This document shows positions 34,910 through 64,000 of a stretch of 64,000 bases of DNA, one piece after another (the stretch's first letter is position 1; every line of letters begins with the position of its first letter). Source of the stretch: Antedon mediterranea (taxonomy: Eukaryota; Echinodermata; Crinoidea; Comatulida; Antedonidae); contig NC_092677.1 in NCBI RefSeq assembly GCF_964355755.1, forward strand, positions 9,446,601 to 9,510,600. The letters run 5' to 3'. The notes beneath the pieces are model-generated. The model worked only from the letters and a program-made list of their open reading frames with translations. It was not told where the DNA came from and ran no database searches. Position numbers and translations under genes: made by a program.

Positions 34910-37900
34910 ATGTCTAAGACACCTGAAGCATATGGAAACACGAACGGTCGCCAGCGCTTGAGGCCGTGGCTGGTGCATAAGATCAACAGCGGGACAATCA
35001 AAGGCCTAGAATGGATGGATGAAGAAAAGCTGATGTTTAAGATCCCATGGAAGCATGCAGGCAAACAAGATTACGATCCTGAAGAAGATTCCCGGATCTT
35101 TAAGGTAATTTGTCTCCTTAAATGTTATTCTGTATCTCTTTATATTGTACCGGTACACATCTTCCGGAATTCTTTTCTAACAAAGCAATGTAAACGTAAG
35201 TTTGTTTACGCCTAATTTGAAACATAGATGCACTTTTATTCAAAAAACGCTTTACAACATGTTTATTCTGTTTTGGGATACTGTTGTTAGGCCCATCATC
35301 GATGACCATAAGATAAGATAATAAGATTTATAAAGCGCACATATCCACAAAGTGCTCAAGGCGCTTGTGAAAACCATGAAAAATACTAACCTTGAAACTA
35401 TAAAAAAAATGTTGCTGTTTTATATATACTTTTGTTTACAAACGTATCAATTTTTAAGTTTAACTACAGGAGCCCGCGACAACAGACATATAGGCCTACC
35501 TCAGTCGCTATAGAAATTTGACCGTCCTTTTGTCAAATATCCTGTATGGGTATTTATACATTCGTTATATTCAACCACCTTTGTGGTCTCTTAATAGAGG
35601 TATCATTGAATAGGAGTCTCGTACTTCCGAAAAAAGGCATTTTATGTAATATGTTTATTTATGTATTTCATGAACAGTCAAACACGTAAATGTAATAATA
35701 AGTGATTTAATGTTGTCAAATATTGCATTATTTAAAGAGTCTGGTTTTTAAATGTAACAACTATACCAGTTAAAAATAAGATCATAAATCTAGCCCGTGA
35801 CATTTGATATTATTTATAACATTATCTGAAATCTTGTTGAAGTTTGAACATTATTTCATTTTAGTTTAATGTATGTATGTCAAAACCATTGACATATACG
35901 ATACATCAGGTTAGGTTGTTTATATCACGTTTGTTTCTTGTAAAAATGTTTTTACCTTCCAAATTATTATGTTAAAATTCCTATCCGGTTGCATCAAGCC
36001 TGTTATAATACATTTTAGGGTGAAAAGTCCAACGATTTTTAGTTAATTTCCGTAAAATCTGAATACGATTTAATTGTAACAATGTTCGGGTTGTTGTGTG
36101 GTGCTCCCGGTGGTAAGGTTACGCAGATTGTGTAGTCCCGGTGGTATTATTACGCGCGGAATTTTCATTAACACTTTATACGTACTGAACCCAAAGGACC
36201 CCGCGTAAAACAGTAGGTGTCAGTTATTATTCCTCTGTAATTAAATACCTTAAAATAATTTTTTCTGCTCAGTAAAGTTCACCAAGTTGGTGCGTGTTGG
36301 TGTCTATAAAAGAATAGCGTGACATTCCCGGTGAATGAGTAACATATAGATGTATCCCCTTACTAAACGAACCAGGGTGAATTTATACTTAAATTACCTG
36401 AACTTAGGAAAAAAGGGTTAAGTAGTCAAACCTAAGTACAATTCGCATTATTTACAGCGTTATGTCACTTTTATTGATAAATTAGTGACAAAACAATGGC
36501 ACTGTTTGTATTAGCTCAGGTATACTAATGAATTGCGTAGACCCGTACCTTCATGGATTTAATTGTGGGTGCACTACCGGGAATCGTATAGACACTGTAT
36601 TATATAATCGTCCTTGCGGAGTCTTACCTCATAGTAGTTTTTGAGAATCCGGGTTGTTAGCGCTAAACGTTGTCATGACCTTCATTAATTTGGTTAAAGT
36701 GGCCAAATTAAGTAATATTAGGAGGATGATTAGGCTTATATAATTGGATTAACTTGTATATAAGAATGACATAATATTAATATGAATAAAAACATAATGA
36801 TATTAATAATTAATCATTAATAATCGAAACTATAACTGAAGCAAACAGTCATTCATTGATATATTTAGGCCTAGTACAACATTACATAATCAAAACATCC
36901 TCTTATAAACTAATAATATATTTTATTACACATAGATTAAACAAACAAAAATTAACTCTATACCTATCACCACTATGTCTAATATTCATAAACACAGTAC
37001 TAAAATTAGAAATGTGTTTGATACACTACTAAGATAACACAGTACAGAACAAGTAAACGTCAATGGGATTTATCAGTGGTTACTAGAGGTACCCGTGGAA
37101 TGAAGGTTCTTTAAATAGACGTAATGCTAAAATAGGTTAGTTATATCACGTCTTTTAATTGTTTTCCAGGAATGGTCTCTACACACTGGCAAGTATAAAA
37201 TCACCATGGAACCTGAACCAGCTGTCTGGAAAACCAGACTACGAACAGCTTTGAACAAACTGCCCGACATCGAAGAGGTGCAAGATAAAACGCAGCTTGA
37301 CATACCAGAACCATACAGGGTTTACAGGCTCCTACCCAGACAGAAGAAACGTAAGTGCATATAAAATAACAAACCTAAATTGTACGCGCGCGTAGAGAAT
37401 TCCGATTTTCATCAGGTTTTGAACGCACGCGTCGAATGTTGAGTCTTTTATTTGCACCGACAATATCTTATGTTCGTATACGTGTTAGTTAAAACAAAAA
37501 ATGTGTTTGGCCAATCATCATTCGTTAATAAGCGCGCGTCGACGCGTCCACTTAATTAACAAATCAAAGAGTGATATTTAGGTATATGTAATTTTCATTC
37601 ATTTTAAAAACAATTTTCTTGAGGGTAAAGAGAATAACCACAACTGATCAGACATAACATGGTTTTATTTACGAGAAATGTAACCCGCTGAGGTCGAACA
37701 GTTACTGTAATAAGCTACCAACAAACATATTTCATGTTGTATTTTTCGCTTGGAGAATAATGCGATAAAAAAATAACTACAAATTCACATAAGGTTAATA
37801 AAATCACAGTAAAAAGAAAGATCTATATATATGATATTATAATTACCAATAGTGCCAATGTGCGGACCAACCATTTTGACAGATAATAAATTACAGTAAA

Positions 37901-39781
37901 AAGAAAGGCCTGACATTATAATCACCAATAATTAGGGGGTCACGATGCGCAACCAACCATATTTTTGACCTATTAAAATTAAGGTTGATCAATTTTAAAT
38001 TAGATAACAAGCGTGTGAAGGCAGAGAGAGAGAGCAAAAGGTGCCGTGGCATATTACCGATACAATTACTTATCAACAAAATCTATATACAATTTAAAAC
38101 AAAATTAAAAATTCGTTTAAGCTTCTAAGGTTCTAATTTATTTGTTGAACTCGAGTGGATGATGATGTTGAACTGATTTATTTTTTGAAAATATTTGGCA
38201 AAGTTTGGATGATTTTGTTATTTTGAGTTCAAACTGCAGGTAATACTAGGTAATAAAGCTAGTCTTTATTGTTTGAAATATCGACAAAGTGGTCATCGAG
38301 TTAGGCCAACAGGGAGATTACCTGGCTCTTGTTCGCCAACTACAGACTATATTGCCAACCACAATTATGAATAAACAAACCTAAAATAACTGAAATGATA
38401 TACACATGGGCTTCATAGTTGGTTTTTAAACCAACACAAAATATAACACCCAAGATTGCTTTTCAAGTCTCCGAAATCACTATTAATTTTATTAAAATGA
38501 GTAAATACATTACGTTTCTTGATCAGACATAGCATATTTATGACGCGTAGCCCCGTGCCGCACAAACGACAGTAAAATGGTGTAGTGATGTAGTGAACCG
38601 TACCACTAAAACATTTTTTTTTAAATTCTTTTTCCACGCGTTTATATTGCGTTTTAAACGTTTATATCGCGGATTACGCGTGTATATTGCGTTTTACGCA
38701 GTGTATGTCAATATGTAAATTAAGTTGTGGACGTGTTTAGATAAAGTGCTTTAACGCGCATAGCTATGCATACGCCAATACCATATAATGCCACAAGCCC
38801 AGCTTCTCCAATTTACACGCATTTTACTAAAGTACTATATTGTTTTGGTTTATTTACCAACTCACGTAGTATTTTTCCGTTGTCAAATGTAAACATCTAT
38901 AAATAAAACATTACCAAAAACTATCCACATAGGTCTGACTACCAGACGGGTGGAGCGCAGTGGCACAGCGTGTGCCCTAACCGACCACGCGTCTTGCATT
39001 CTTCGCCGAGACTTCTGCTGAGCTGTAGGCCTAGTGCCAAAACTACCAGTACGTTTGGCAGACAATATTGATCGGGTATCTTCTTACCAGTAACGCCGCC
39101 CACTTAGTCACACAAAGTGCTAAAATGACCATGTATCTATTTCTGTCCTCTTTTGTGAGAGTAAAAAAAAATGTATATATGATGTGTTGCTATGCTATGC
39201 GATTTAAGTCGAGATGCTTTACTTATATTTTTTTTTTTACTTTATATATTTGTAGCGTCTTCAATGCCGCTAACTCAGCGTAATAACGGATGTCGATCCC
39301 AGGTGTATCATCCGTACCAAAGACTTGATCAAACAAATGTACGTATATTTTATGCTTTTATTTTTATCGTTATTATCATCTCATCTTCATTATTGTATCA
39401 TTATCATCATTGATTGATTAATTATTTAATTACTTTATTTGATATAGGCCTATTTCCTTAATTCAAATACATTGAAAAGAATATCGGGATAACCCGGAAG
39501 CCGACAATTACAAGAATTATTTCCAATGTAGTCCAGAAAGATTATTATTATTTATTAATAATTATCATCATTCATAATAATTATTATTAATTTTCATAAT
39601 AATTATTATTAATTTCATTTTACAGCAACATCCAAGCCGACTCTCCCAAATGCGCCATAGCATGGGTTACAACAGGCCTAATAATGTACATACGGGTTAC
39701 CCAACTAGCTATATAATGCCCGGAATAGACCAGGTAAGACCGCTATCGAATCGTGATGACGTCATTATTATTATTATTACT

Positions 39782-39822
<41 letters not shown>

Positions 39823-42800
39823 TTAGCCAGCGAGCATAAGTAACGTCATTGATTTTTTATTTTAAACGGTAAAATTCAATGCTGAATTTAAAATATAGGT
39901 GTTTATATTCCACATGATTTTAACTTTTTAAACGTTAACATGGTTAAATATTAATTGTGTAATTAATTAATAAATGCATGTGTTACTTTTTTGCAGATGA
40001 CACCACCCGGTAACTCGAACGATATATTTTACGATTTCCAGCCACAAATTAGCCAAGGTAAGGGACACGAACCGGTCAAAAATTTTTACTCCAATTCATG
40101 TTCAATACCTCACCCTACAACATCAGCAGACAATACGCCCTAAATTTAAAATTCCATGACATTTTGTCCTTATTGCCCTGTTAGGTATTAATCCTTTTTG
40201 AAATTAATATATAAATGTGTATGTCCTTGGTGTAGTTTCCTTCCGTTATGTCTAGTATTGTGAATGCAACTCGTTCTCACAGTGATCAAGGGAAACGGAC
40301 AGGCCGTTCTAGTCACGTAGTAAACCAACTAACAATATTATCATTCATTGAAATGTCTATTAAGAAAAGCATTCTTTTTTGTGATGCAAACCTGTGACTC
40401 TCTCACTCTCATCTAGAACATTAATAAAACTAACAATCTGATCACAAGTAGGCCTAATCAAAGGACAGGTCCTTTACAAATATCTCCCTTGTTCGTGATG
40501 CGAACCGGTGACCCCTGACTTTCTACGAAACATTATTGATGCGCTGCACCATTAAGCTTGGTTCCCAGTAGAACGTAACGCAATGACGTAAACGCAACGC
40601 AAGCGCGTTGACCAATGACAAGCGAAATTATAGACAGTTAGCAATCACAAGCGAATAAGCCATCGCTTGTGATTGGTCAATTCACTTGCGTTGCGTTACG
40701 TCCTTGCGTTGCGTCGCTAGTGGGAACCACGCTTTAGTAGAATGTACGTGTTATAAATGTTAGTTAATATTATATAATCATCAATTTCATCATTCGTGGT
40801 TATGACATAGGCCTGGTATTGTGTTCTGGATACACACTGATATACAACCATGTACCCCTTTCACATCGCCTACAGTAGCAAAGGTCCGTAGTTGACACAC
40901 TGGGGGCATCAACACGCATTTTGTTAGCGATGTAAAAGTGGTATAATTATCATTTTAGATAATGATTATTGTTTTATTCATTTATAAACATATTTTCACT
41001 GGATAAAAATATCAACGTTGTCCCACAAAGGGGACATTGTTGATTTTCAAAAGGTCCAGCATAAAACATTACAACATACATATAATACATAGTTTCTTAA
41101 AAATAGTAAAACATTTTGAAATTAAACAGTCAACAAAAATGTTGATTATTATCTTCATTTACGTTATATTACAGTGTTTTCTCCGACTTCTGTTGGTGGA
41201 CTAAATATTGAGGATGTCAATGACGTCATAACACCTAGACTAGACCCTTACATGAGTGATTATGACCAGATGAGTGCTGGTTCGTCGTCACCCAACATGG
41301 ACCCTGAACCGCAGTATCAAAGTAAGCTTTATTTAAAAAATAGTCCTACACAGGTAGCTTACCGTTAAAAAACTAGCAATGCAAGTACTGTACACAAATG
41401 CAATCAAGTAAAAAAGAAAATTGGTAGCCGAAATGTAACACAATCATCTGGGTCAGTAGTAAACATAATATAATTGAAAATTAATAGATGTATTAGTTGT
41501 AATCTTATTGGTTCGTTCTAAATTACTTGGTCAATGTCAGAGGTATTTCTATAAGTAAATGTTTCCTGTATTTACGTTACAGACAATCAACTAACTCAAT
41601 TCAACTACACACAAGGCGGGATCATAGCCTCACAACCGACCATGACCAGCCTTCAATCCAGAACGTACGGCGGCGGTTACCAACACCAGACGAACAACGT
41701 GTACACAACGCAGGCGCAAGGATGCGCACCGACCACGGCAGTCGGAATGACGTCATCACCGGCGTACAACCAAACCTACCACCAGCAAACGCATAACGCG
41801 ATGGTACCGTACAGTGGCGGTATGCGAGCAGTTGATGATATATGGCCAGGTACAACGGTGCCCGTCAGAGAAGACAACATGATCATGAAAACAGGTATGA
41901 CTTGCACGCAGAACTACTACCCTTATTTTCTTTATTGTTTTATTGTGGTGTTGTTGTTTTTTTGCATTGAACCAAACAGTTTGGTCCCCATAACCAAATA
42001 TATTTAATGATGTTTTTCTGTTTTTTCCATCAGAGAAAGAAATGGATATAAAGGTTCGTTACAGGGGCGAGACAGTAATCGACAAAAGAGTTGGAGACTG
42101 TTGTATCTATTCCAAGACTATGCTGCCAGGCCTGGAGCTTCTGACGCCAATTGAGTTACCAGACAGTCAAACGGTGGAATATAAGGTACTAAAACCGTCA
42201 GAGAAACAGAAGGAGCACACTAACACAGTTATTGACAGCATGCTTAAGGGGTAATTTAATATCACACGTAGAAATGCATTATAGCAATTGCACGACGCGT
42301 CACCAAAGAACATCCTCAAACCAAGTTGCGTTCTCAACGCCAATTTACAGTAGGTTGTGAACATGAGCAGATATTCGTTGAGTTTGTTTCTTCGTATTCT
42401 TTGGTGCCGCGTCGTAAGCCCGTATTCACACCTGCTCCGTCACAAACCGCGAAAAAGATATCTATGTTGTTACAAGAAACATTCGTTCACACAACATTCG
42501 AGTGGGGTTTTATTATTTTTAGCTATGAATTGAAGTTCAGTTCGTTAATAGGTCACATCGACACTGTCGATTGTGATTGGTCAACTCGTTGTGTCAACGC
42601 CGTTGCGTTGCGTCTGAACCAAGCTTTACACATTACAAAAAAAAGTGAAAATTCAAATTGATTTGGTTTTTCAGCAGTAGATTAATTTTTTAGGCATAAT
42701 TTGTTTGTTTGAAAAAAAATATCAAAGCAGAACAATTGTTTGTATCAGTATTAGTTTGTGACGTAATAGTTAAACCACCGAAAAACGTTGACGGTGCGAA

Positions 42801-43695
42801 TACGGGTTATATAATTATATATTAATAAATTAACATTATTATTAACCTCTGTTGTACTACTAATTACTATAATTCTCCTAATAGAAAGTCATTGTACCTG
42901 TTCAATAATCGATAAGGCAGGCGACTTTCACAACAGTATGCTCTTAGTCAAATATAGACAAATTGATTGATTCATTTTTGATCGCCAACAACAAAGCATA
43001 GGCCTATTAGGAGATTTGAATCAATGCATTCCAGGACGAAATTACTATATAATTAAATGTATTATTAACTTTGTTTATCTTATAGTTTGATTTTTGAATA
43101 TGACCAGTCAGATCGTTCGTTATACGTGACACGGCATTGCAAAGGCAAGGTTTTCTGTCAGAGTACGCAGTTCCATATCGGCCAATCAGTAATCACATTA
43201 GAGAAGGAGAAAAGATTTAAAATCTTTGATTACAACAAATTCGATTGCGACTTCTACCAGTGGTACAAAGAAGACTATTTGTCCGGCAGCCGTATGCCGA
43301 TTCAGAAACCGGAGATTTTCTTCAGCGTTGCTCAAAAGTGGCAACCACCGTGCGCGGTTCTGGACGAAGACGCGTCATCGTCTGCTGATAATGGACTCGT
43401 GTTGGATGATTGTCTGCTTTCTATCATTATCCAACCGGTTTCTGCCAATGAAAACATCGAAGCAGTTGATAAAAAGAATCTTTCTGACCAAACTCCTACT
43501 GGTGTAAAGATGAAACATCTTTTATATTCGAATGATGATCAGCAGTTTGTCTCTGATAACTCGAATGTCCAGTACGCAAATGGGTATTACCCACAATACC
43601 GTCCATATGATGCATACAACAACGGAAGTCAACCAGTTACCCCCAGTAACAATACGCATGTTCAACAACATGTAATAACGCAGCTAACGCCTTAG
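34910..43695 (+). CDS. IRF: Interferon regulatory factor (IRF) family transcription factor, complete, nine exons
   Basis: Exons: 34910-35104, 37170-37350, 39256-39338, 39626-39733, 39997-40057, 41175-41321, 41583-41894, 42034-42250, 43086-43695 (stop TAG). All introns are GT..AG and phases agree throughout, giving 637 residues. Residues 1-125 form the IRF DNA-binding domain with all five spaced tryptophans (W20, W35, W47, W67, W85) and family blocks such as FKIPWKHAGKQDY, LHTGKY and LPDIEEV; this winged-helix domain binds GAAA repeats in the nucleus. Residues 126-362 are a Q/N/P/Y-rich, probably disordered linker. Residues about 366-553 are an IRF-association domain of the IRF3/4/8 type (IKVRYRGE, YVTRHCKGKVF, FKIFDYNKF, EIFFSVAQKWQPP), which mediates dimerisation. 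The tail is N/Q-rich. The DBD resembles IRF1/2 in places while the C-terminus is an IAD1, so no vertebrate orthologue is assigned. Initiation at 34910 is chosen because it directly precedes the DBD, as in other IRFs. Confidence 0.93.
35306..35371. mobile_element. Dispersed-repeat fragment in IRF intron 1
   Basis: AGATTTATAAAGCGCACATA followed by TCCACAAAGTGCTCAAGGCG has the look of a retroelement 3' fragment common in marine invertebrate genomes (from memory). A distant echo, AAGGTGCTTAAGGCGCTTTG, lies at about 15674-15693. The family is not identified. Confidence 0.3.
39763..39824. repeat. (ATT)n microsatellite in IRF intron 4
   Basis: About 20 trinucleotide units with one interruption, directly after a TGACGTCA octamer at 39757-39764. 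Confidence 0.92.
40553..40735. mobile_element. Palindromic MITE (GCAACGCAAG family), complete copy in IRF intron 5
   Basis: About 183 bp with long inverted repeats. The left arm is TAAGCTTGGTTCCCAGTAG, then AACGTAACGCAATGACGTAA, then CGCAACGCAAG..TTGACCAATGACAAGCGA. The right arm is the complement of TAAAGCGTGGTTCCCACTAG with GACGCAACGCAAGGACGTAA and TTGACCAATCACAAGCGA. TA dinucleotides at both outer ends could be a TA target duplication. Each arm carries a CCAAT motif. Partial copies occur at 25812, 30552, 42555-42640 and 57050. Nothing is encoded. Confidence 0.8.
42416..42808. mobile_element. Second MITE-like element in the last IRF intron, with a nested arm of the GCAACGCAAG family
   Basis: GCCCGTATTCACACC at the left is mirrored by GGTGCGAATACGGGTT at the right, giving inverted ends of about 16 bp. 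Inside, 42555-42640 holds GATTGTGATTGGTCAACTCG, GTTGCGTTGCGTCTGAACCA and AGCTTTA, the right arm of the intron-5 MITE family. The whole lies in the intron 42251-43085 that splits the IAD. Ends and superfamily are uncertain. Confidence 0.5.
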
Positions 43696-44714: not shown

Positions 44715-47700
44715 GCCGAAAAATAAAAAGGTCGAAAATTGGCCATATATCGAAAAATCCCTGTACTATAGTACAGGGAAATTTTCGAAAAATGATCGAT
44801 TTTCGACCTTTTTATTTTTTGACATAAATCGTTACTATTGCATAATAAACATGCGCAGAGGCGAATAATGGGTTCTGCGCATGTCAATTGTGCTATAGTA
44901 ACCAGTTTTGACATAAATGGTTACTATACCATAATAAACATGCGCAGAGGCGAATAATGGGTTCTGCGCATGTTAATTGTGCTATAGTAACCAGTTTTAT
45001 CGAAAAATAAAAACATCGAAAATTGGCCATTTTTTGAAAAAATCCCTGTACTATAGTACAGGGAAATTTTCGAAAAATGATCGATTTTCGACCCTTTTAT
45101 TTTTTGACATAAATCGTTACTATTGCATAATAAACATGCGCAGAGTCGAATAATGGGTTCTGCGCATGTCAATTGTGATATAGTAACCAGTTTTGACATA
45201 AATGGTTACTATAGCATAATAAACATGCGCAGAGGCAAATAATGGGTTCTGCGCATGTCAATTGTGCTATAGTAACCAGTTTTGACATAAATGGTTACTA
45301 TACCATAATAAACATGCGCAGAGGCGAATAATGGGTTCTGCGCATGTTAATTGTGCTATAGTAACCAGTTTTATCGAAAAATAAAAACATCGAAAATTGG
45401 CCATTTTTTGAAAAAATCCCTGTACTATAGTACAGGGAAATTTTCGAAAAATGATCGATTTTCGACCCTTTTATTTTTTGACATAAATCGTTACTATTGC
45501 ATAATAAACATGCGCAGAGTCGAATAATGGGTTCTGCGCATGTCAATTGTGATATAGTAACCAGTTTTGACATAAATGGTTACTATAGCATAATAAACAT
45601 GCGCAGAGGCAAATAATGGGTTCTGTGCATGTTAATTGTGCTATAGTAACCAGTTTTATCGAAAAATAAAAACATCGAAAATTGGCCATTTTTTTGAAAA
45701 AAATGCCTGTACTATAGTACAGGGAAATTTTCGAAAAATGATCGATTTTCGACACTTTTATTTTTTGACATAAATCGTTACTATTGCATAATAAACATGC
45801 GCAGAGTCGAATAATGGATTCTGCGCATGTCAATTGTGCTATAGTAACCAGTTTTGACATAAATGGTTACTATAGCATAATAAACATGCGCAGAGGCAAA
45901 TAATGGGTTCTGCGCATGTTAATTGTGCTATAGTAACCAGTTTTATCAAAAAATAAAAACATCGAAAATTGGCCATTTTTTGAAAAAATCCCTGTACTAT
46001 AGTACAGGGAAATTTTCGAAAAATGATCGATTTTCGACCCTTTTATTTTTTGACATAAATCGTTACTATTGCATAATAAACATGCGCAGAGTCGAATAAT
46101 GGGTTCTGCGCATGTCAATTGTGATATAGTAACCAGTTTTGACATAAATGGTTACTATAGCATAATAAACATGCGCAGAGGCAAATAATGGGTTCTGCGC
46201 ATGTCAATTGTGCTATAGTAACCAGTTTTGACATAAATGGTTACTATACCATAATAAACATGCGCAGAGGCGAATAATGGGTTCTGCGCATGTAAATTGT
46301 GCTATAGTAACCAGTTTTATCGAAAAATAAAAACATCGAAAATTGGCCATTTTTTGAAAAAATCCCTGTACTATAGTACAGGGAAATTTTCGAAAAATGA
46401 TCGATTTTCGACCCTTTTATTTTTTGACATAAATCGTTACTATTGCATAATAAACATGCGCAGAGTCGAATAATGGGTTCTGCGCATGTCAATTGTGATA
46501 TAGTAACCAGTTTTGACATAAATGGTTACTATAGCATAATAAACATGCGCAGAGGCAAATAATGGGTTCTGCGCATGTTAATTGTGCTATAGTAACCAGT
46601 TTTATCGAAAAATAAAAACATCGAAAATTGGCCATTTTTTTGAAAAAAATGCCTGTACTATAGTACAGGGAAATTTTCGAAAAATGATCGATTTTCGACA
46701 CTTTTATTTTTTGACATAAATCGTTACTATTGCATAATAAACATGCGCAGAGTCGAATAATGGATTCTGCGCATGTCAATTGTGCTATAGTAACCAGTTT
46801 TGACATAAATGGTTACTATAGCATAATAAACATGCGCAGAGGCAAATAATGGGTTCTGCGCATGTTAATTGTGCTATAGTAACCAGTTTTATCAAAAAAT
46901 AAAAACATCGAAAATTGGCCATTTTTTGAAAAAATCCCTGTACTATAGTACAGGGAAATTTTCGATAAATTGCCGATTTTCGACCCTTTCATTTTTTGAC
47001 ATAAATCGTTACTATTGCATAATAAACATGCGCAGAGTCGAATAATGGGTTCTGCGCATGTCAATTGTGCTATAGTAACCAGTTTTGACATAAATGGTTA
47101 CTATAGCATAATAAACATGCGCAGAGGCGAATAATGGGTTCTGCGCATGTTAATTGTGCTATAGTAACCAGTTTTATCGAAAAATAAAAACATCGAAAAT
47201 TGGCCATTTTTTGAAAAAATCCTGTATAGTACAGGGAAATTTTCAAAAAATGATCGATTTTCGACCTTTTTATTTTTTGACATAAATCGTTACTATTGCA
47301 TAATAAACATGCGCAGAGCCGAATAATGGGGTCTGCGCATGTCAACTGTGCTATAGTAACCAGTTTTGACATAAATGGTTACTATAGCATAATAAACATG
47401 CGCATAGGCGAATAATGGGTTCTGCGCATGTTAATTGTGCTATAGTAACCAGTTTTATCGAAAAATAAAAACATCGAAAATTGGCCATTTTTTGAAAAAA
47501 TCCCTGTACTGTACAGGGAAATTTTCGAAAAATGATCGATTTTCGACTCTTTTATTTTTTGACATAAATCGTTACTATTGCATAATAAACATGCGCAGAG
47601 GCGAATAATGGGTTCTGCACATGTCAATTGTGCTATAGTAACCAGTTTTTATATAAATGGGTACTATAGCATAATAAACATGCGCAGAGGCAAATAATGG

Positions 47701-50700
47701 GTTCTGCGCATGTTAATTGTGCTATAGTAACCAGTTTTATCGAAAAATAAAAACATCGAAAATTGGCCATTTTTTGAAAAAATCCCTGTACTATAAGTAC
47801 AGGGAAATTTTCGATAAATTGCCGATTTTCGACCCTTTTATTTTTTGACATAAATCGTTACTATTGCATAATAAACATGCGCAGAGTCGAATAATGGGTT
47901 CTGCGCATGTCAATTGTGCTATAGTAACCAGTTTTGACATAAATGGTTACTATAGCATAATAAACATGCGCAGAGGCGAATAATGGGTTCTGCGCATGTT
48001 AATTGTGCTATAGTAACCAGTTTTATCGAAAAATAAAAACATCGAAAATTGGCCATTTTTTGAAAAAATCCTGTATAGTACAGGGAAATTTTCGAAAAAT
48101 GATCGATTTTCGACCTTTTTATTTTTTGACATAAATCGTTACTATTGCATAATAAACATGCGCAGAGCCGAATAATGGGTTCTGCGCATGTCAACTGTGC
48201 TATAGTAACCAGTTTTGACATAAATGGTTACTATAGCATAATAAACATGCGCATAGGCGAATAATGGGTTCTGCGCATGTTAATTGTGCTATAGTAACCA
48301 GTTTTATCGAAAAATAAAAACATCGAAAATTGGCCATTTTTTGAAAAAATCCCTGTACTATAGTACAGGGAAATTTTCGATAAATTGCCGATTTTCGACC
48401 CTTTTATTTTTTGACATAAATCGTTACTATTGCATAATAAACATGCGCAGAGTCGAATAATGGGTTCTGCGCATGTCAATTGTGCTATAGTAACCAGTTT
48501 TGACATAAATGGTTACTATAGCAGAATAAACATGCGCAGAGGCGAATAATGGGTTCTGCGCATGTTAATTGTGCTATAGTAACCAGTTTTATCGAAAAAT
48601 AAAAACATCGAAAATTGGCCATTTTTTGAAAAAATCCTGTATAGTACAGGGAAATTTTCAAAAAATGATCGATTTTCCGACCTTTTTATTTTTTGACATA
48701 AATCGTTACTATTGCATAATAAACATGCGCAGAGCCGAATAATGGGTTCTGCGCATGTCAACTGTGCTATAGTAACCAGTTTTGACATAAATGGTTACTA
48801 TAGCATAATAAACATGCGCATAGGCGAATAATGGGTTCTGCGCATGTTAATTGTGCTATAGTAACCAGTTTTATCGAAAAATAAAAACATCGAAAATTGG
48901 CCATTTTTTGAAAAAATCCCTGTACTATAGTACAGGGAAATTTTCGATAAATTGCCGATTTTCGACCCTTTTATTTTTTGACATAAATCGTTACTATTGC
49001 ATAATAAACATGCGCAGAGTCGAATAATGGGTTCTGCGCATGTCAATTGTGCTATAGTAACCAGTTTTGACATAAATGGTTACTATAGCAGAATAAACAT
49101 GCGCAGAGGCGAATAATGGGTTCTGCGCATGTTAATTGTGCTATAGTAACCAGTTTTATCGAAAAATAAAAACATCGAAAATTGGCCATTTTTTGAAAAA
49201 ATCCTGTATAGTACAGGGAAATTTTCAAAAAATGATCGATTTTCCGACCTTTTTATTTTTTGACATAAATCGTTACTATTGCATAATAAACATGCGCAGA
49301 GCCGAATAATGGGTTCTGCGCATGTCAACTGTGCTATAGTAACCAGTTTTGACATAAATGGTTACTATAGCATAATAAACATGCGCATAGGCGAATAATG
49401 GGTTCTGCGCATGTTAATTGTGCTATAGTAACCAGTTTTATCGAAAAATAAAAACATCGAAAATTGGCCATTTTTTGAAAAAATCCATGTACTATAGTAC
49501 AGGGAAATTTTCGATAAATTGCCGATTTTCGACCCTTTTATTTTTTGACATAAATCGTTACTATTGCATAATAAACATGCGCAGAGTCGAATAATGGGTT
49601 CTGCGCATGTCAATTGTGCTATAGTAACCAGTTTTGACATAAATGGTTACTATAGCATAATAAACATGCGCAGAGGCGAATAATGGGTTCTGCGCATGTT
49701 AATTGTGCTATAGTAACCAGTTTTATCGAAAAATAAAAACATCGAAAATTGGCCATTTTTTGAAAAAATCCTATATAGTACAGGGAAATTTTCGAAAAAT
49801 GATCGATTTTCGACCTTTTTATTTTTTGACATAAATCGTTACTATTGCATAATAAACATGCGCAGAGCCGAATAATGGGTTCTGCGCATGTCAACTGTGC
49901 TATAGTAACCAGTTTAAACATAAATGGTTACTATAGCATAATAAACATGCGCATAGGCGAATAATGGGTTCTGCGCATGTTAATTGTGCTATAGTAACCA
50001 GTTTTATCGAAAAATAAAAACATCGAAAATTGGCCATTTTTTGAAAAAATCCCTGTACTGTACAGGGAAATTTTCGAAAAATGATCGATTTTCGACTCTT
50101 TTATTTTTTGACATAAATCGTTACTATTGCATAATAAACATGCGCAGAGGCGAATAATGGGTTCTGCACATGTCAATTGTGCTATAGTAACCAGTTTTTA
50201 TATAAATGGTTACTATAGCATAATAAACATGCGCAGAGGCAAATAATGGGTTCTGCGCATGTTAATTGTGCTATAGTAACCAGTTTTATCGAAAAATAAA
50301 AACATCGAAAATTGGCCATTTTTTGAAAAAATCCCTGTACTATAAGTACAGGGAAATTTTCGATAAATTGCCGATTTTCGACCCTTTTATTTTTTGACAT
50401 AAATCGTTACTATTGCATAATAAACATGCACAGACTCGAATAATGGGTTCTGCGCATGTCAATTGTGCTATAGTAACCAGTTTTGACATAAATGGTTACT
50501 ATAGCATAATAAACATGCGCAGAGGCGAATAATGGGTTCTGCGCATGTTAATTGTGCTATAGTAACCAGTTTTATCGAAAAATAAAAACATCGAAAATTG
50601 GCCATTTTTTGAAAAAATCCTGTATAGTACAGGGAAATTTTCGAAAAATGATCGATTTTCGACCTTTTTATTTTTTGACATAAATCGTTACTATTGCATA

Positions 50701-53700
50701 ATAAACATGCGCAGAGCCGAATAATGGGTTCTGCGCATGTCAACTGTGCTATAGTAACCAGTTTTGACATAAATGGTTACTATAGCATAATAAACATGCG
50801 CATAGGCGAATAATGGGTTCTGCGCATGTTAATTGTGCTATAGTAACCAGTTTTATCGAAAAATAAAAACATCGAAAATTGGCCATTTTTTGAAAAAATC
50901 CCTGTACTGTACAGGGAAATTTTCGAAAAATGATCGATTTTCGACTCTTTTATTTTTTGACATAAATCGTTACTATTGCATAATAAACATGCGCAGAGGC
51001 GAATAATGGGTTCTGCACATGTCAATTGTGCTATAGTAACCAGTTTTTATATAAATGGTTACTATAGCATAATAAACATGCGCATAGGCGAATAATGGGT
51101 TCTGCGCATGTTAATTGTGCTATAGTAACCAGTTTTATCGAAAAATAAAAAACATCGAAAATTGGCCATTTTTTGAAAAAATCCCTGTACTATAGTACAG
51201 GGAAATTTTCGAAAAATGATCGATTTTCGACCCTTTTATTTTTTGACATAAATCGTTACTATTGCATAATAAACATGCGCAGAGTCGAATAATGGGTTCT
51301 GCGCATGTCAATTGTGATATAGTAACCAGTTTTGACATAAATGGTTACTATAGCATAATAAACATGCGCAGAGGCAAATAATGGGTTCTGCGCATGTTAA
51401 TTGTGCTATAGTAACCAGTTTTATCGAAAAATAAAAACATTGAAAATTGGCCATTTTTTTGAAAAAATGCCTGTACTATAGTACAGGGAAATTTTCGAAA
51501 AATGATCGATTTTCGACACTTTTATTTTTTGACATAAATCGTTACTATTGCATAATAAACATGCGCAGAGTCGAATAATGGATTCTGCGCATGTCAATTG
51601 TGCTATAGTAACCAGTTTTGACATAAATGGTTACTATAGCATAATAAACATGCGCAGAGGCAAATAATGGGTTCTGCGCATGTTAATTGTGCTATAGTAA
51701 CCAGTTTTATCGAAAAATAAAAACATCGAAAATTGGCCATTTTTTGAAAAAATCCCTGTACTATAGTACAGGGAAATTTTCGATAAATTGCCGATTTTCG
51801 ACCCTTTTATTTTTTGACATAAATCGTTACTATTGCATAATAAACATGCGCAGAGTCGAATAATGGGTTCTGCGCATGTCAATTGTGCTATAGTAACCAG
51901 TTTTGACATAAATGGTTACTATAGCATAATAAACATGCGCAGAGGCGAATAATGGGTTCTGCGCATGTTAATTGTGCTATAGTAACCAGTTTTATCGAAA
52001 AATAAAAACATCGAAAATTTGCCATTTTTTGAAAAAATCCCTGTATAGTACAGGGAAATTTTCGAAAAATGATCGATTTTCGACCTTTTTATTTTTTGAC
52101 ATAAATCGTTACTATTGCATAATAAACATGCGCAGAGGCGAATAATGGGTTCTGCACATGTCAATTGTGCTATAGTAACCAGTTTTTGTATAAATGGTTA
52201 CTATAGCATAATAAACATGCGCAGAGGCAAATAATGGGTTCTGCGCATGTTAATTGTGCTATAGTAACCAGTTTTATCGAAAAATAAAAACATCGAAAAT
52301 TGGCCATTTTTTGAAAAAATCCCTGTACTATAAGTACAGGGAAATTTTCGATAAATTGCCGATTTTCGACCCTTTTATTTTTTGACATAAATCGTTACTA
52401 TTGCATAATAAACATGCACAGACTCGAATAATGGGTTCTGCGCATGTCAATTGTGCTATAGTAACCAGTTTTGACATAAATGGTTACTATAGCATAATAA
52501 ACATGCGCAGAGGCGAATAATGGGTTCTGCGCATGTTAATTGTGCTATAGTAACCAGTTTTATCGAAAAATAAAAACATCGAAAATTGGCCATTTTTTGA
52601 AAAAATCCTGTATAGTACAGGGAAATTTTCGAAAAATGATCGATTTTCGACCTTTTTATTTTTTGACATAAATCGTTACTATTGCATAATAAACATGCGC
52701 AGAGCCGAATAATGGGTTCTGCGCATGTCAACTGTGCTATATGAAACCAGTTTTGACATAAATGGTTACTATAGCATAATAAACATGCGCATAGGCGAAT
52801 AATGGGTTCTGCGCATGTTAATTGTGCTATAGTAACCAGTTTTATCGAAAAATAAAAACATCGAAAATTGGCTATTTTTTGAAAAAATCCCTGTACTGTA
52901 CAGGGAAATTTTCGAAAAATGATCGATTTTCGACTCTTTTATTTTTTGACATAAATCGTTACTATTGCATAATAAACATGCGCAGAGGCGAATAATGGGT
53001 TCTGCACATGTCAATTGTGCTATAGTAACCAGTTTTTATATAAATGGTTACTATAGCATAATAAACATGCGCATAGGCGAATAATGGGTTCTGCGCATGT
53101 TAATTGTGCTATAGTAACCAGTTTTATCGAAAAATAAAAAACATCGAAAATTGGCCATTTTTTGAAAAAATCCCTGTACTATAGTACAGGGAAATTTTCG
53201 AAAAATGATCGATTTTCGACCCTTTTATTTTTTGACATAAATCGTTACTATTGCATAATAAACATGCGCAGAGTCGAATAATGGGTTCTGCGCATGTCAA
53301 TTGTGATATAGTAACCAGTTTTGACATAAATGGTTACTATAGCATAATAAACATGCGCAGAGGCAAATAATGGGTTCTGCGCATGTTAATTGTGCTATAG
53401 TAACCAGTTTTATCGAAAAATAAAAACATTGAAAATTGGCCATTTTTTTGAAAAAATGCCTGTACTATAGTACAGGGAAATTTTCGAAAAATGATCGATT
53501 TTCGACACTTTTATTTTTTGACATAAATCGTTACTATTGCATAATAAACATGCGCAGAGTCGAATAATGGATTCTGCGCATGTCAATTGTGCTATAGTAA
53601 CCAGTTTTGACATAAATGGTTACTATAGCATAATAAACATGCGCAGAGGCAAATAATGGGTTCTGCGCATGTTAATTGTGCTATAGTAACCAGTTTTGAC

Positions 53701-54245
53701 ATAAATGGTTACTATAGCATAATAAACATGCGCAGAGGCGAATAATGGGTTCTGCGCATGTTAATTGTGCTATAGTAACCAGTTTTATCGAAAAATAAAA
53801 ACATCGAAAATTGGCCATTTTTTGAAAAAATGCCTGTACTATAGTACAGGGAAATTTTCGAAAAATGATCGATTTTCGACTCTTTTATTTTTTGACATAA
53901 ATCGTTACTATTGCATAATAAACATGCGCAGAGGCGAATAATGGGTTCTGCGCATGGCAATTGTGCTATAGTAACCAGTTTTTATATAAATGGTTACTAT
54001 TGCATAAAAAACATGCGCAGAAGCGAATAATGGGTTCTGCGCATGTCAATTGTGCTATAGTAACCAGTTTTGACATAAATGGTTACTATAGCATAATAAA
54101 CATGCGCAGAGCCGAATAATGGGTTCTGCGCATGTTAATTGTGCTATAGTAACCAGTTTTATCGAAAAATAAAAAGATCGAAAATTGGCCATTTTTTGAA
54201 AAAAATCCCTGTACTATACTACAGGGAAATTTTACCATTTTATTT
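44715..54245. repeat. Satellite array, ~284-bp palindrome-rich unit, about 33 copies
   Basis: Each unit has two hairpin modules and one central palindrome. The hairpin modules run GTTACTATAGCA..TGCTATAGTAAC around CATGCGCAGA..TCTGCGCATG. The palindrome is CCCTGTACTATAGTACAGGG, inside a wider inverted context (CGAAAATTGGCCATTTTTTG / CGAAAAATGATCGATTTTCG). Units are 282-286 bp; an extra ~95-bp hairpin module is inserted at some junctions (for example 44905-44995, 45193-45290, 53695-53785). Copies are nearly identical, so the array is young or homogenised. Open frames of 60-105 codons on the minus strand in every unit are by-products: they follow the repeat and change with indels in it. Confidence 0.96.
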
Positions 54246-55720
54246 TTTGATCATCTTATAGTACCATAGAATAATTCAATTATTATGCGTTTATATTGCT
54301 GTATATGATCATATATTGCTTTATGATCGTCTTATAGTACCATAGAAAAATTCAATAATTATGCGTTTATATTGCTGTATATGATCATATATTGCTTTAT
54401 GATCATTTTATAGTACCATAGAACAATTCAATTATTTTGCGTTTTTATTGCTGTAGGCCTATATGATCATATATTGCTTTATGATCATCTTATAGTACCA
54501 TAGAACCCAATTGTATCGAAAAATAAAAAGGTCGAAAATTGGCCATATATCGAAAAATCCCTGTATGGATTTTTTCCCAAAAATGGCCAAAATATCAAGT
54601 TTTTAAAATTCAATTATTATGCGTTCATATTGCTGTATATGATCATATATTGCTTTATGATCATTTTATAGTACCATAGAACAATTCAATTATTTTGCGT
54701 TTTTATTGCTGTAGGCCTATATGATCATATATTGCTTTATGATCATCTTATAGTACCATAGAACCCAATTGTATCGAAAAATAAAAAGGTCGAAAATTGG
54801 CCATATATCGAAAAATCCCTGTATGGATTTTTTCCCAAAAATGGCCAAAATATCAAGTTTTTAAAATTCAATTATTATGCGTTCATATTGCTGTATATGA
54901 TCATATATTGCTTTATGATCGTCTTATAGTACCATAGAACAATTCAATTATTTTTTGCGTTTATATTGCTGTATATGATCATATATTGCTTTATGATCGT
55001 CTTATAGTACCATAGAACAATTCAATTATTATGCGTTTATATTGGTGTATATGATCATATATTGCTTTATGATCATTTTATAGTACCATAGAACAATTCA
55101 ATTATTTTGCGTTTATATTGCTGTATAATATGATCATATATTGCTTTATGATCATCTTATAGTACCATAGAACAATTCAATAATTATGCGTTTATATTGC
55201 TGTATATGATCATATATTGCTTTATGATCATTTTATAGTACCATAGAACAATTCAATTATTTTGCGTTTATATTGCTGTATATGATCATATATTGCTTTA
55301 TGATCATCTTATAGTACCATAGAACAATTCAATAATTATGCGTATATATTGCTGTATATGATCATATATTGCTTTATGATCGTCTTATAGTACCATAGAA
55401 CAATTCAATTATTATGCGTTTATATTGCTGTATATGATCATATATTGCTTTATGATCATCTTATAGTACCATAGAACAATTCAATAATTATGCGTATATA
55501 TTGCTGTATATGATCATATATTGCTTTATGATCGTCTTATAGTACCATAGAACAATTCAATTATTATGCGTTTATATTGCTGTATATGATCATATATTGC
55601 TTTATGATCGTCTTATAGTACCATAGAACAATTCAATTATTATGCGTTTATATTGCTGTATATGATCATATATTGCTTTATGATCTTCGTGTAGTACCAT
55701 AGAACCCAGTTTTGCCGATA
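54246..55720. repeat. Second satellite, ~77-bp unit, about 17 copies
   Basis: The unit includes TTATAGTACCATAGAACAAT, TCAATTATTATGCGTTTATA and TTGCTGTATATGATCATATA; spacing of TAGTACCATAGAA is mostly 73-83 bp. The core TATATGATCATATA is a 14-bp palindrome. Between about 54500 and 54860, two pieces of the 284-bp family (TCGAAAAATAAAAAGGTCG, TTGGCCATATATCGAAAAAT) are embedded, and that stretch is itself duplicated. The two satellites are therefore interleaved, not simply adjacent. Confidence 0.93.
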
Positions 55721-57611: not shown

Positions 57612-57643
57612 ATGCAAATGAGGTGGCTCACTGTATATATAAA
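57612..57643 (+). promoter_or_regulatory. Octamer (ATGCAAAT) + TATA box core promoter
   Basis: A perfect octamer ATGCAAAT (57612-57619), the POU/Oct-factor site, precedes TATATAAA (57636-57643) by 16 bp. A start site near 57670 and an untranslated leader of about 75 bp to the ATG at 57745 would follow. A half-ISRE, CAGTGAAACT, lies at about 57654-57663. Confidence 0.5.
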
Positions 57644-57744
57644 TGTTGGCGCACAGTGAAACTTTGTACACTTCAAAAATTCAGAGGACCGAATTTAAGA
57701 ATTTATAGACACCTAAAAGAAACATTTATTTTCGATGGAAAACA

Positions 57745-59267
57745 ATGGCGCAGACGGTGCAAAACAGTCAGGTATGTTACTTACTATTACTTTACGGATA
57801 CAGTATAAAGTATAATCATGCTTAGGCCTATTGTTCTTCAATTGTGTTTTTTCGTAGGCCTATTTCTTTTTAATATTTTTCTATTATTAGGCCTAATACT
57901 TATCACGTATAAATCAAATATTATTAATGTAAACTTGTTGGCATTGTATTGCTGTTAATGTCATTTTTAAAATTATTACTATTGTAAAAAATAGTATTTA
58001 CTTATTTTAATACATACTTAAAACATTATTTAATATTTATGGCAATAAAAGTACTTTTACTTATTTTTTTTTTCAACTTGTACCTTTATTTCTTGTTTTT
58101 CTTTGTGATAATTTTTATTCCAAAGGGTCTTACGACTACAGATAATTATTTGTCTCTGGAAGATCCATGTAACAATGTAAATATTTATATTGTTCAATAA
58201 ATAAATAATTTTATTATACATTTTAAAATTTTATTTTAACAGATTTTCTTATGGAGGTTACAGTGCGTTACCGATCTGAGCAAGTTGCGCGTCAAACCGT
58301 ACGCGGGGTAGACGGGGTTTGCGTTTACCATGGCTCTAACAAAGTTAAAAATGAAGTTATGACAGCTATCGGCTTAAAACGTAGCAGATATGTTGATTAT
58401 AGAACACCGCAAAAATCAGAAAAACTGATTGAACTTACCGATCGTGTGCTATTAAACATGAAAAATGGGTATGTTTATCGAAACATTTATTTATCAAGTT
58501 GTGATCTTTTTTTCTTTGTTGAGGTGAAGGATTTGATTTTGGTTACAAGCAAAGTTTAATTGATATATTGTTGAGTAAAAAGCGTCGTATTTAATTCTTA
58601 TGTCGTTCTTTATTTTAGGATTACTTTTACGTATGATCCAAGTGACAACTGTGTGTACGCTACCCGGCTTTGTAACAGTATGGTATTTATGTACAGTCCG
58701 CAATTTCAAACCGGTCCTGAATATCCAGTTAAACTGATACTCGGACAAAAAACGAAAATTTACGACTGTACCGTTCATGGCATATCGGCATGTTCACTAA
58801 CAGACGAGAAAATGTTTCCGGAGGATCCCAGCGTGTTTTTTAGCGTTGCGCAAAAATGGCAGCCAATTGCATCGAAAGAAGATCGTTTCTGCGCCGACTT
58901 CTTACCTAACAAATTACCGTTGGAAGATTGTTTGGTTTCAATGGCTTTAAAATTACACATTTCTGGTGTTGCTGCCGCTACCCAGAAATTCAACGAAAGT
59001 ACAACGGTCAGTTCTTCCGACATCGACATGGGAAATACCATTTATGGATTGAACCAACCAATCAGACAACCAGACGTATGCCGACCGGAAGTATCAATTA
59101 TCCGTTTGCGTAAGTTTATGGATGCTATGTGCGCAAACGTTCCTGCGATGGAGGATAGGCTGAGATTGTTTCAGGAAAAGCTGGTTGAATTTGAAGCGTC
59201 AACGTCTGACCTACGGAATGAATTCCATGAGCTTGTGAGAGATGCAACAGGAATATCAATACAGTAA
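57745..59267 (+). CDS. IRF-association-domain protein without a DNA-binding domain (IAD-only paralogue 1)
   Basis: Exons: 57745-57771, 58126-58168, 58243-58468, 58619-59267 (stop TAA), all GT..AG and phase-consistent, giving 314 residues. The first two exons encode only a short leader (MAQTVQNSQ, then GLTTTDNYLSLEDP). Residues about 27-230 are an IAD: MEVTVRYRSEQVARQTV, TFTYDPSDNCVYATRLC, and FFSVAQKWQPI, which is almost identical to the equivalent stretch of the upstream IRF. No tryptophan-repeat DBD was found between the satellite and this gene. The last ~58 residues (from VSIIRLRKF) are charged, helical and heptad-like (MEDRLRLFQEKLVEFEAS, LRNEFHELV), a likely coiled coil not seen in the neighbour. 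Inference: it dimerises with IRFs without binding DNA. The two leader exons are less certain than the IAD exons; an overlapping upstream ATG at 57735 meets a stop in exon 2. Confidence 0.83.
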
Positions 59268-59465: not shown

Positions 59466-59509
59466 GGGTAGAGCGTGGCTTTATCTTCACACGCGCGCCG
59501 CCGACGGCA

Positions 59510-61317: not shown

Positions 61318-61400
61318 TGGTCATACTAGGAAACACTTTGATTCGTCGAAACGGTATTTCCGAACATTGCGGTCATACTAGGAAACGACTGGATTCGTCG
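61318..61400. repeat. ~52-bp partial direct duplication
   Basis: GGTCATACTAGGAAAC followed by GATTCGTCG occurs at about 61318 and again at 61370. The remainder of the second unit diverges. Confidence 0.65.
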
Positions 61401-62022
61401 TAATTGTTTGGAAATTCCAGGTCTGAATATTACCGAGAAGTATCATAGGTAATGATTCAATGAAAGGTTCCTGGAGATTATATTGTGTTTCCGTTGCATG
61501 TACAACGTAAAGAATATAGAGTTGGTCGCGGAAGGGAGGGAGGAAGATGGAGAGGGCAGCGGGTACCACAACCTATGAACTCATGTAGCATTTACTAACT
61601 TGTTCATAATCACCCTGTGTATTATCATGATTCATCATCATCGTCGTCAGTATTCTTAACATCATAATCATCGGCTTCTTCTAATGATAATGTCATCATC
61701 ATAATTATGCCACAATACAACATTATTCAAAATCAAATTGTTATACATTCCCTATAATTAATTTTATCTCAATATCCGGCACTAAGTTACTAACATACGG
61801 TAAGCTTTAATTCTGAAATTAGAGTTGTTATTGCAATGAAAGAATCTCTTAACATTTTCTTTAATTTAATTACATCTTTTAATTTAAAAATCATGTTATC
61901 AAATCAGGAAACCTATATTGATTGGGAAGTTACGTGTCGTTATGGTTATCCGTAACGACATACTACTAATTTTCAATATAAACACTGCTTAGTTTTCCTG
62001 GTAACGAGACGCTTCAAACATA
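61401..62022. other. Upstream region of IAD-only gene 2
   Basis: Non-coding. It includes a short perfect hairpin TGTCGTTA..TAACGACA (61935-61960). Confidence 0.35.
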
Positions 62023-62057
62023 TTCTGGGAAAAGCACGCAGTGAACTTGCTATAAAA
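62023..62057 (+). promoter_or_regulatory. GAS-like site + TATA box
   Basis: TTCTGGGAA (62023-62031) fits the TTCN3GAA consensus of STAT-bound GAS elements. TATAAAA is at 62051-62057, 49 bp before the ATG at 62106, so transcription would start about 62080-62090 with a very short leader. Confidence 0.45.
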
Positions 62058-62105
62058 CACCGGTTTGACAAAAGGCGGCCTTAGCTTATATGCAACCCGT
62101 GAACG

Positions 62106-64000
62106 ATGACGCATCATAGTGGAGGTGTGGATCAATTTGGAAACTTCACCCACAATATCGGATATCCAACATTCGGGAATAATTTACCTGACCTCCCATT
62201 GGATTTTCTTAATTCTTCGTTCGCCGCCGGATTGGAGGGGGACACTGCATCGGGGGCTGTGGACTGGATATCGAAGATGTACGCGGGAACGACCCCCGAA
62301 ACAACATTTGTCACAGGTTCAACTGATTCCTGGGTGGTGACACAACCAGGGATGACACAGAGTGATGTAGCACCATCGAATCTGGTGTTAGGTTCGATGA
62401 TGCCCACGACGATGCATTGTGGTGAGATTGCATCTACATCAGCATTGACATGTGAATGGGTTGAAAATAGGATTGGCACGTCGATTATCGATGGGAACAA
62501 GAAAATGGTTCCCAATAGGATACAGGGTGAGGCAGCATCATCAAACTCTTGGGACATAGGCTTCCCGATAGATTCTATGCCTAAGATGATGATGCGAGGA
62601 GATTTCCCACTATCTACCGGATTTGACGAAGGGACATCACATGTGAAGGTACCACAAATTGCCACATCAACCACGTGCGGATTAATTGATGACGGTGTAG
62701 GTCTAATGGATGGAGAGTATGAGGAGGAGGAGGAGGAGGAAGACGACGACGATGATGACGTCATCGCTATATCTAATCCCGTAGCACAACGTAGGCCGGT
62801 GCGTAAAACAATACGAGAAGGTAAATTGTATTTTTTTAAATAAAATTGAATGTTTGCTTTTACTACTATTGATTTATATTAATTATTGACTATTATTTAT
62901 GAGCAGGGCGGATCTTGGGAGGGATAAGGGAAAAGTTACTACCGTTAATCCAGGGAAGAGTGATATTAATTAATTAAACTATTCACTGGGTGGTCAGGAA
63001 GATGATGGTGATGATGAGGATGATATTAATGGCGTTACTATGTCAGGTGATAAATATGAAGATGGTGATAACTAATTTGAGATTTCGTATATGCACTGAG
63101 AATGACAATGACTTCGAAATAGCGTTACGTAAAGTTAATTGGTCAGATATCTAACCATAGCCATCAGCGCAAGCTCAAGGAGTATGAACGCCAGGGCGAT
63201 GGCGGTCGTGGGTTTTAGTGGCACCCAAGAATTACTTATTAGAATTACATTCTAATGTACTTAATTCGCATAAATTAAAATAGATCAGTAAGGCAAACAT
63301 TTGATGTCAACGACAATATAAACATTTTCTTACATAGCTTTACCATCAGAACTGAAGATAACTCTAAAATACCGCAAAAAGGAAGTGAAGTGTGTCGACG
63401 TAGATATCAGCAACGGGTTTCGTGTTGGCTATGGCGTCGTTCTAGATACCAGCAACGTGTTGACGTTTCCCACTGTGTGCGTTCCTAACATCCAGAACGA
63501 GGCCGATAGATATGAAAAAGAAGCATCAATGAAGGAATATAAGTTGAGAAAAACCGTACTTGAAAACCTCGAGAACGGGTATGTATGTATAATGTATGTT
63601 TTAGCGTCAAATTACGCAAATTGTAAATATACCGTTCGCAACTAAATGAAAGGCGCCAATGGATCAAGGGCCTAACTAATACCAACCTAATTATAATTTA
63701 CAAAATTACTAAACATTTTCAATGCTTAGAAGATTGTCCTTTTAACAAGTAATTTGTCAGGAAAGATTATGATGTAAGTCTTTTTAATTCCACAGCGTTG
63801 AGTTTAGTATTTCGAACGGAATAATCTACGCAACTCGTCGATGCCGCGCCAAAGTATTCTGCTTCAGTACTCAACAGCACAACGGACAAGATCCAGTAAA
63901 ACTGCAACAAGGGGTACCGCTCAAAATATTCGACTACAATTCCTTCGATGACACCCTCAGGGAATTTTATTTAAATCAAATTGGCGCCAATTCTATTGCA
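62106..64000 (+). CDS. IAD-only paralogue 2 with an acidic N-terminal region (partial at window end)
   Basis: Exons: 62106-62820, 63338-63578, 63796 to beyond 64000; phases 1 then 2 agree, so 387 residues are visible. Exon 1 encodes 238 residues with no DBD. A hydrophobic/acidic patch DLPLDFLNSSF (about 29-39) resembles an activation motif; the middle is S/T/G-rich; 204-218 is an uninterrupted E/D/Y run; it is followed by a basic patch QRRPVRK (228-234) that could be a nuclear localisation signal. From residue 239 on, ALPSELKITLKYRKKEVKC opens an IAD that continues with GIIYATRRCRAKVFCFSTQ, PLKIFDYNSFDDTLREFY. It resembles the IAD of the complete IRF more closely than paralogue 1 does. The start is chosen because it is the first ATG after the TATA box with a long frame; an ATG at 62091 is followed at once by a stop. 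The 3' part lies outside the window. Confidence 0.82.
63151..63300 (+). mobile_element. tRNA-derived SINE, copy 2 (intron 1 of IAD-only paralogue 2)
   Basis: Same order of blocks as the 14001 copy: CTAACCATAGCCATCAGCGC, AAGCTC, GAACGCCAGG, GGTCGTGGGTT, TGTACTTA and ATCAGTA.GGCAAACAT. The tRNA-like head is badly degraded. It ends 37 bp before the exon 2 acceptor, so insertion so close to the splice site was tolerated. Confidence 0.7.

Follow-up and report, generated by a model that had tools for sequence, protein, structure and literature searches.

Can the association module of an interferon regulatory factor (IRF) stand in an animal genome as a gene of its own, without the DNA-binding domain (DBD)? 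The question is raised by a stretch of 64,000 nucleotides from the crinoid Antedon mediterranea (C8:9,446,601-9,510,600, where C8 is contig NC_092677.1 of assembly GCF_964355755.1; hereafter the window), considered here together with its flanks and with a scan of the genome (354 Mb, 18 contigs). A first-pass annotation, made from the letters of the window, had placed in it a complete IRF and, beside it on the same strand, two genes that keep the IRF association domain (IAD) and lack the DBD. The presence of such genes and their strand are upheld, but their number has to be revised: gene 1, the complete IRF, is followed on the same strand by five DBD-less IAD genes (C8:9,504,335-9,523,448), of which three lie outside the window, and only two had been counted because the window stops within gene 3. 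At the level of gene models, the claim that IAD genes without a DBD stand as separate units next to a complete IRF is supported.

Gene 1 (34910-43695, + strand, ATG at 34910) carries both domains of the complete IRF that had been proposed. Its DBD part and its IAD part, each joined from exons and then scanned apart, match PF00605 (132.2 bits, E = 1.1e-38) and PF10401 (64 bits, E = 1.9e-17), respectively, the curated cut-off being 27 bits for both models. The IAD model is matched above this cut-off by all six proteins (61.8-82.8 bits), among them gene 2 (61.8 bits as a joined protein, E = 9.0e-17) and gene 3 (66.6 bits, E = 3.2e-18); for gene 4, the scan covered the first 274 of 451 residues, with most of the glutamine tail left out. 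PF00605, in contrast, is matched at E <= 1 by none of genes 2-6 (0/5), and within the locus it is confined to gene 1. The reported absence of DBD blocks among the downstream genes holds in a tblastn search with the gene 1 DBD, which, from 34 kb in the window to 40 kb past its end, retrieves the DBD exons of gene 1 only (next match, E = 3.9); the 104 kb of locus sequence contain no N. The blocks described as shared, FFSVAQKWQP between genes 1 and 2 and KIFDYN between genes 1 and 3, are real. A profile built from the six IADs finds the structures of IRF5 (1.1e-13), IRF4, IRF9 and IRF3, all six matches at E <= 0.01 being IRFs, and the IRF IAD model outscores MH2 in each of the six proteins. A SMAD/MH2 identity was tried and rejected, MH2 rising above its cut-off in gene 3 alone (30.2 bits, vs 66.6 for PF10401) and lying below cut-off or unlisted in the others. 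Judged by these domain matches, genes 2-6 are IRF-derived IAD proteins that fall outside the usual sense of IRF.

How many DNA-binding IRFs could such proteins meet? Two DBD loci were found in the genome, both by a Pfam scan and with the gene 1 DBD as query: gene 1 itself and a second DBD gene at C6:20,927,098-20,933,627, of which both DBD exons were recovered (49% and 34% identity). Neither the Pfam genome scan nor four IAD queries gave an IAD match on C6, and a DBD gene of this kind would fit an IRF1/2-type gene. The four IAD queries returned 9, 9, 8 and 7 matches in the genome, every one in the C8 array, and no IAD was found outside it genome-wide; since these searches score each exon alone and weak matches may escape, that absence is likely, not certain. 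Indeed, the raw-genome Pfam scan listed five IAD exons and missed the IAD of gene 2, probably because exons are scored singly. Gene 1 is therefore the only locus at which these searches of the genome detect a DBD together with an IAD. Searches for relatives in bacterial and archaeal genome contigs and in viral contigs gave 55 and 16 pattern matches, respectively, none of which was confirmed.

The five downstream genes share one plan: each consists of an ATG exon followed by IAD exons a and b, in an uninterrupted three-exon frame with GT-AG introns, and in all six units, gene 1 included, exon a is entered in phase 1 and the intron between a and b is in phase 2. Around this common core they differ widely, bearing out the earlier remark that the DBD-less genes carry unrelated N- and C-termini. 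The 239-residue N-terminal part of gene 3 includes a 31-residue stretch with 52% D/E, the tail of gene 4 has 198 residues (59% Q), that of gene 5 has 226 residues (18% Q) and that of gene 2 has 75 residues. Gene 6 is young and truncated, by a TAG downstream of which, as judged by eye (one TAG inside a genome match), the reading frame matches gene 5 again. Exon b of gene 5 stays open through a pyrimidine tract ending in TTTAG (L001 8797-8819), acceptor-like, at the very place of the gene 6 stop, and because of this tract the tail of gene 5 may be spliced differently.

The intron phases can be compared with those of described IRFs. In a model that includes one tentative exon, the intron phases of gene 1 are 0,1,0,0,1,1,1,2, and gene 1 is an IRF4-group-type IRF. 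In Table 1 of PMC2885996, the phases are given as 2,0,1,0,1,0,1,1,1,2 for the sea urchin IRF-like-2, as 2,0,0,1,0,1,1,1,2 for that of the acorn worm and as 0,1,0,1,1,1,0 for human IRF4, and zebrafish IRF-9 is listed with the ending 0,1,1,1,2 too. Like the two IRF-like-2 genes, gene 1 has a DBD, an IAD and the last phases 0,1,1,1,2; genes 2-6, unlike them, are devoid of both DBD and linker exons. The ending that gene 1 has in common with the IRF-like-2 genes would be in keeping with an ambulacrarian (echinoderm or hemichordate) host, though, given the zebrafish IRF-9 entry, as a hint only. The phases 1 and 2 around exon a in all six units are those with which the sea urchin and acorn worm genes end, whereas human IRF4 ends in 1, 0. 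The acorn worm IRF-like-3-seg (phases 1, 2) was considered as an IAD-only gene and rejected, as the authors state in the same paper that such segments contain a DBD.

The first exons of genes 2-6 were picked by eye and were therefore compared with random DNA. For this purpose, 400 random segments were drawn on both strands from the window and its flanks outside the six genes (they may include other genes), and a segment was counted if it held an ATG exon, leaving in phase 1, whose length and donor score equalled or exceeded those of the first exon of the gene in question. Such segments numbered 0/400 for gene 3, 1/400 for gene 2, 2/400 for gene 4, 12/400 for gene 6 and 25/400 for gene 5, i.e., the first exons beat random DNA clearly for genes 2-4 and weakly for genes 5 and 6. 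An in-frame stop lies 3 to 90 bases upstream of the ATG in each of genes 2-6. The ATG of gene 3 comes 3 bases past its stop with no AG between, while genes 2, 4, 5 and 6 have at least one AG in this interval, which would in principle allow splicing into their first exons. Besides the TATA-like sites tabulated for genes 2 and 3, another, likewise weak as evidence in AT-rich DNA, lies 330 bases before the ATG of gene 6.

For pairwise comparison and for the tree, the IADs were cut at 215 residues. In 14 of the 15 pairs (5/6 excluded), identity is 23-43% with intact frames, the proportion of synonymous differences (pS) is 0.66-0.82 and that of nonsynonymous differences (pN) 0.41-0.56, synonymous sites being so near saturation that no ratio of nonsynonymous to synonymous rates (dN/dS) is possible. 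The pair 5/6 is young (86% identity, synonymous divergence dS 0.17, dN/dS 0.44, Fisher p 0.006 from rounded counts). Seventeen IAD columns are invariant across all six genes. A phylogeny, which the first-pass annotation had suggested for three IADs, was run with six: they split (100/100) from IRF4 and IRF5, which served as outgroup rows, and genes 1 and 2 are joined (87/91).

What might such proteins do? In passages of PMC3639176 and PMC7411613, the IAD is described as mediating interaction with other IRFs, the human IRF3 isoform IRF-3a, with an intact IAD and a damaged DBD, as pairing with full-length IRF3 and inhibiting it, and the isoforms IRF-3b, -3c, -3d and -3f as predicted to be without the entire DBD. 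Genes 2-6 resemble IRF-3a in keeping an IAD without a working DBD; the difference is that the IRF3 forms are splice products of one gene, while here five paralogous genes have their own N- and C-terminal parts. The reading that we favour, and consider moderately probable on the basis of the gene models, is that tandem IAD duplications beside gene 1 produced five separate DBD-less genes whose proteins act in trans on gene 1 through IAD-IAD association. The last two coding exons of an IRF4-group-type gene 1, those of the IAD, would have been duplicated repeatedly in tandem, each copy having, in the gene models, its own ATG first exon. The five IAD-only proteins would then pair with the gene 1 product through IAD-IAD contact; action in trans on gene 1 seems most likely because it is the sole DNA-binding IRF with an IAD found. 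The short proteins of genes 2 and 6 would compete, giving dimers with one DBD or none, as IRF-3a does to IRF3, and gene 3 by its acidic N-terminal run, genes 4 and 5 by their glutamine-containing tails, would bring additional activation or interaction surfaces to DNA-bound gene 1. The output of one DNA-binding factor could in this way be adjusted by the choice of IAD partner that is made. That the DBD-less proteins tune or block the full-length factor, as had been proposed for the first two, is plausible because IRF-3a, with its IAD kept and part of its DBD lost, pairs with and inhibits IRF3. Activation domains can contain acidic and glutamine-rich stretches, and for this reason genes 3-5 may be co-activators, with genes 2 and 6 as blockers.

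Are these really separate and functional genes? The downstream IAD pairs might instead be mutually exclusive last exons, spliced to the DBD and linker exons of gene 1 and yielding full IRFs with varied IADs: all units lie on one strand, and the five downstream exons a all accept phase 1, which is the phase of the last linker exon of gene 1, so that every join would be in frame. We find this improbable, as every unit brings an ATG exon of its own with exit phase 1, which clearly beats random DNA in genes 2-4, as the first exon of gene 3 is 715 bases long behind the AG-free gap already described, and as the joins would bridge about 16 to 34 kb, with a satellite of 9.5 kb intervening. Another possibility is that DBD exons of genes 2-6 are present but too diverged or misassembled to be seen; an exon-by-exon search of the genome may miss weak matches, yet the locus sequence is free of N and the distant DBD exons on C6 were still detected, and such an error of the gene models appears highly improbable. 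Could the copies be decaying or silent duplicates without function? The TAG of gene 6, which lies within a short stretch that is frame-shifted relative to gene 5, would suit this view, but genes 2-5 retain open frames of 303-468 codons with usable splice sites, the invariant IAD columns persist at low identity, and between genes 5 and 6 nonsynonymous changes are, per site, rarer than synonymous ones. Open frames and invariant columns that persist despite saturated synonymous sites are unlike unconstrained DNA, and simple decay is accordingly given a low probability.

A further alternative would dispense with pairing on DNA, the IAD-only proteins being cytoplasmic decoys, adaptors or scaffolds that bind phosphorylated adaptors or a TBK1-type kinase in competition with gene 1. 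Its precedent, in passages of PMC7411613, is the surface of IRF3 that binds the phosphorylated pLxIS motifs of adaptors and of a second IRF3 tail, dimerisation being driven by serine S386 of the tail motif. In the array, the LxIS motifs of genes 3 and 4 (YLQIS and HLFIS) share one alignment column past the IAD core, where gene 1 reads HLLYS. By position, this column may correspond to the place of IRF3 S386, and the resemblance of genes 3 and 4 to a phospho-switch is suggestive only. In addition, a tandem STING-like array is present in the genome, as are two loci matching the TBK1-type model PF18394 (44 and 43 of 256 positions matched). On the other hand, LxIS arises in 765 and 465 of 20000 shuffled tails, its sharing by genes 3 and 4 is weak evidence since the two are paralogues, the sole LxIS of gene 2 (KLHIS) lies elsewhere, gene 5 reads FFFFS and gene 6 has none, and the profile alignment to IRF5 ends ahead of the place in question. 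Moreover, the + strand frames of at least 55 residues in the STING region hold two LxIS strings, both in hydrophobic stretches. A decoy function hence seems rather unlikely. The use of pLxIS as proof of a kinase switch was reduced to a lead, chance amounting to 2-4% per shuffled tail. Doubtful as well is a split, combinatorial IRF, in which gene 1 would be the DNA-binding subunit and the tandem bank of DBD-less partners would lend it, by way of the IAD they have in common, various tails for activation or repression. Part of the bank might also be spliced in frame to the gene 1 DBD, and its expansion would run parallel to that of the STING-like genes, which belong to the pathway too.

Several points weigh against our favoured reading, that of IAD-only proteins acting in trans on gene 1. 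Genes 2-6 are gene models drawn from DNA, and their dimerisation is a prediction; a half-domain AlphaFold model of gene 1 exon b (window rows only) was discarded, its mean predicted local distance difference test (pLDDT) score of 35.8 being too poor to read. The first exons of genes 5 and 6 have 22 bases only and are near chance, the donor of gene 4 is weak (score 5.0), a search of 400 bases at genes 4 and 5 gave no TATA-like site, and gene 6 stops early. The tree has two outgroup rows only, and three of its five inner branches are open. Lastly, the IAD of gene 1 shows just 28-33% identity to the other five, so that the heterodimer surfaces may have diverged.

Features of the IRF locus (window positions, unless given on C8)
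Feature	Position	Strand	Remarks
Gene 1 exon 1: start codon, N-terminal half of DBD, exit phase 0	34910..35104	+	PF00605
Gene 1 exon 2: C-terminal half of DBD, basic stretch, exit phase 1	37170..37350	+	PF00605
Gene 1 candidate linker exon, phase 1 in, 0 out	39256..39338	+	Sole candidate printed by scan; tentative
Gene 1 linker exon, phase 0 in and out	39626..39733	+	GT-AG and open frame, by eye
Gene 1 linker exon, phase 0 in, 1 out	39994..40057	+	By eye
Gene 1 linker exon, phase 1 in and out	41175..41321	+	By eye
Gene 1 linker exon, phase 1 in and out	41583..41894	+	Gene model
Gene 1 IAD exon a	42034..42250	+	PF10401 (joined)
Gene 1 IAD exon b, with stop codon	43086..43695	+	PF10401
Satellite array between genes 1 and 2, mostly ~286-base period	44717..54233	.	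Several overlapping repeat rows
TATA-like site, 99 bases before gene 2 ATG	57636..57642	+	Weak, AT-rich DNA
Gene 2	57735-59267	+	303 residues
Gene 2 first coding exon, 12 residues, exit phase 1	57735..57771	+	Random-segment control 1/400
Gene 2 IAD exon a	58243..58468	+	PF10401 (joined)
Gene 2 IAD exon b, unrelated C-terminal tail, stop	58619..59267	+	PF10401, no DBD
TATA-like site, 55 bases before gene 3 ATG	62051..62056	+	Weak, AT-rich DNA
Gene 3	62106 to C8:9,510,858 (258 bases past window end)	+	468 residues
Gene 3 first exon, own N-terminal region of ~239 residues, acidic run, exit phase 1	62106..62820	+	Random-segment control 0/400
Gene 3 IAD exon a; a second in-frame acceptor AG lies 12 bases upstream	63350..63578	+	PF10401
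Gene 3 IAD exon b, continues past window end (stop C8:9,510,858)	63796..64000	+	PF10401
Gene 4	C8:9,513,195-9,515,316	+	451 residues
Gene 5	C8:9,517,835-9,520,093	+	448 residues
Gene 6	C8:9,521,849-9,523,448	+	223 residues

Other features were observed around the array and elsewhere in the genome. The satellite between genes 1 and 2 (44717-54233) contains an 89-base submotif and is followed by a 76-base repeat array at 54244-55705. Farther upstream, arrays of the short unit GGACAACTACCCCC at 21368-21602 and 22766-23035, in opposite orientations, surround another 22-base array at 21741-22069, and are perhaps a mobile element. The next clear coding stretch past the IRF array, on the same strand, is a RING-finger gene (C8:9,527,811-9,528,479) whose RING finger scores above cut-off and whose TRAF-type zinc finger scores slightly below its own; none of ten other frames near the IRF locus gave a match at E <= 0.01 in a Pfam scan. 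On contig C1, the STING ligand-binding domain is found in 15 exon pieces at C1:19,073,747-19,107,246, all within 34 kb, in a tandem array that, judged by eye, holds about eight copies and also a retroelement between them.

To what extent does this array have counterparts? The viral IRFs of Kaposi's sarcoma-associated herpesvirus are IRF relatives that alter the action of host IRFs; unlike them, the genes described here lie on an animal chromosome, with introns placed as in the neighbouring IRF gene. Another example is that of the inhibitory SMADs, in which a related MH2 domain acts on full-length relatives without DNA binding of its own; this is a works-like comparison only, as the family is another one and genes 1-6 favour the IRF IAD over MH2. 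A limited and partial search of the literature found no cellular family of DBD-less IRF genes. The IRF surveys PMC2885996 and PMC9334734 describe searches by the DBD, and IAD-only genes would therefore go uncounted in them. If genes 2-6 are expressed and their proteins pair with gene 1, an invertebrate would devote separate genes to a type of IRF antagonist that in mammals arises through splicing, and the array, with its naturally varied IADs, would lend itself to tests of which residues govern pairing.

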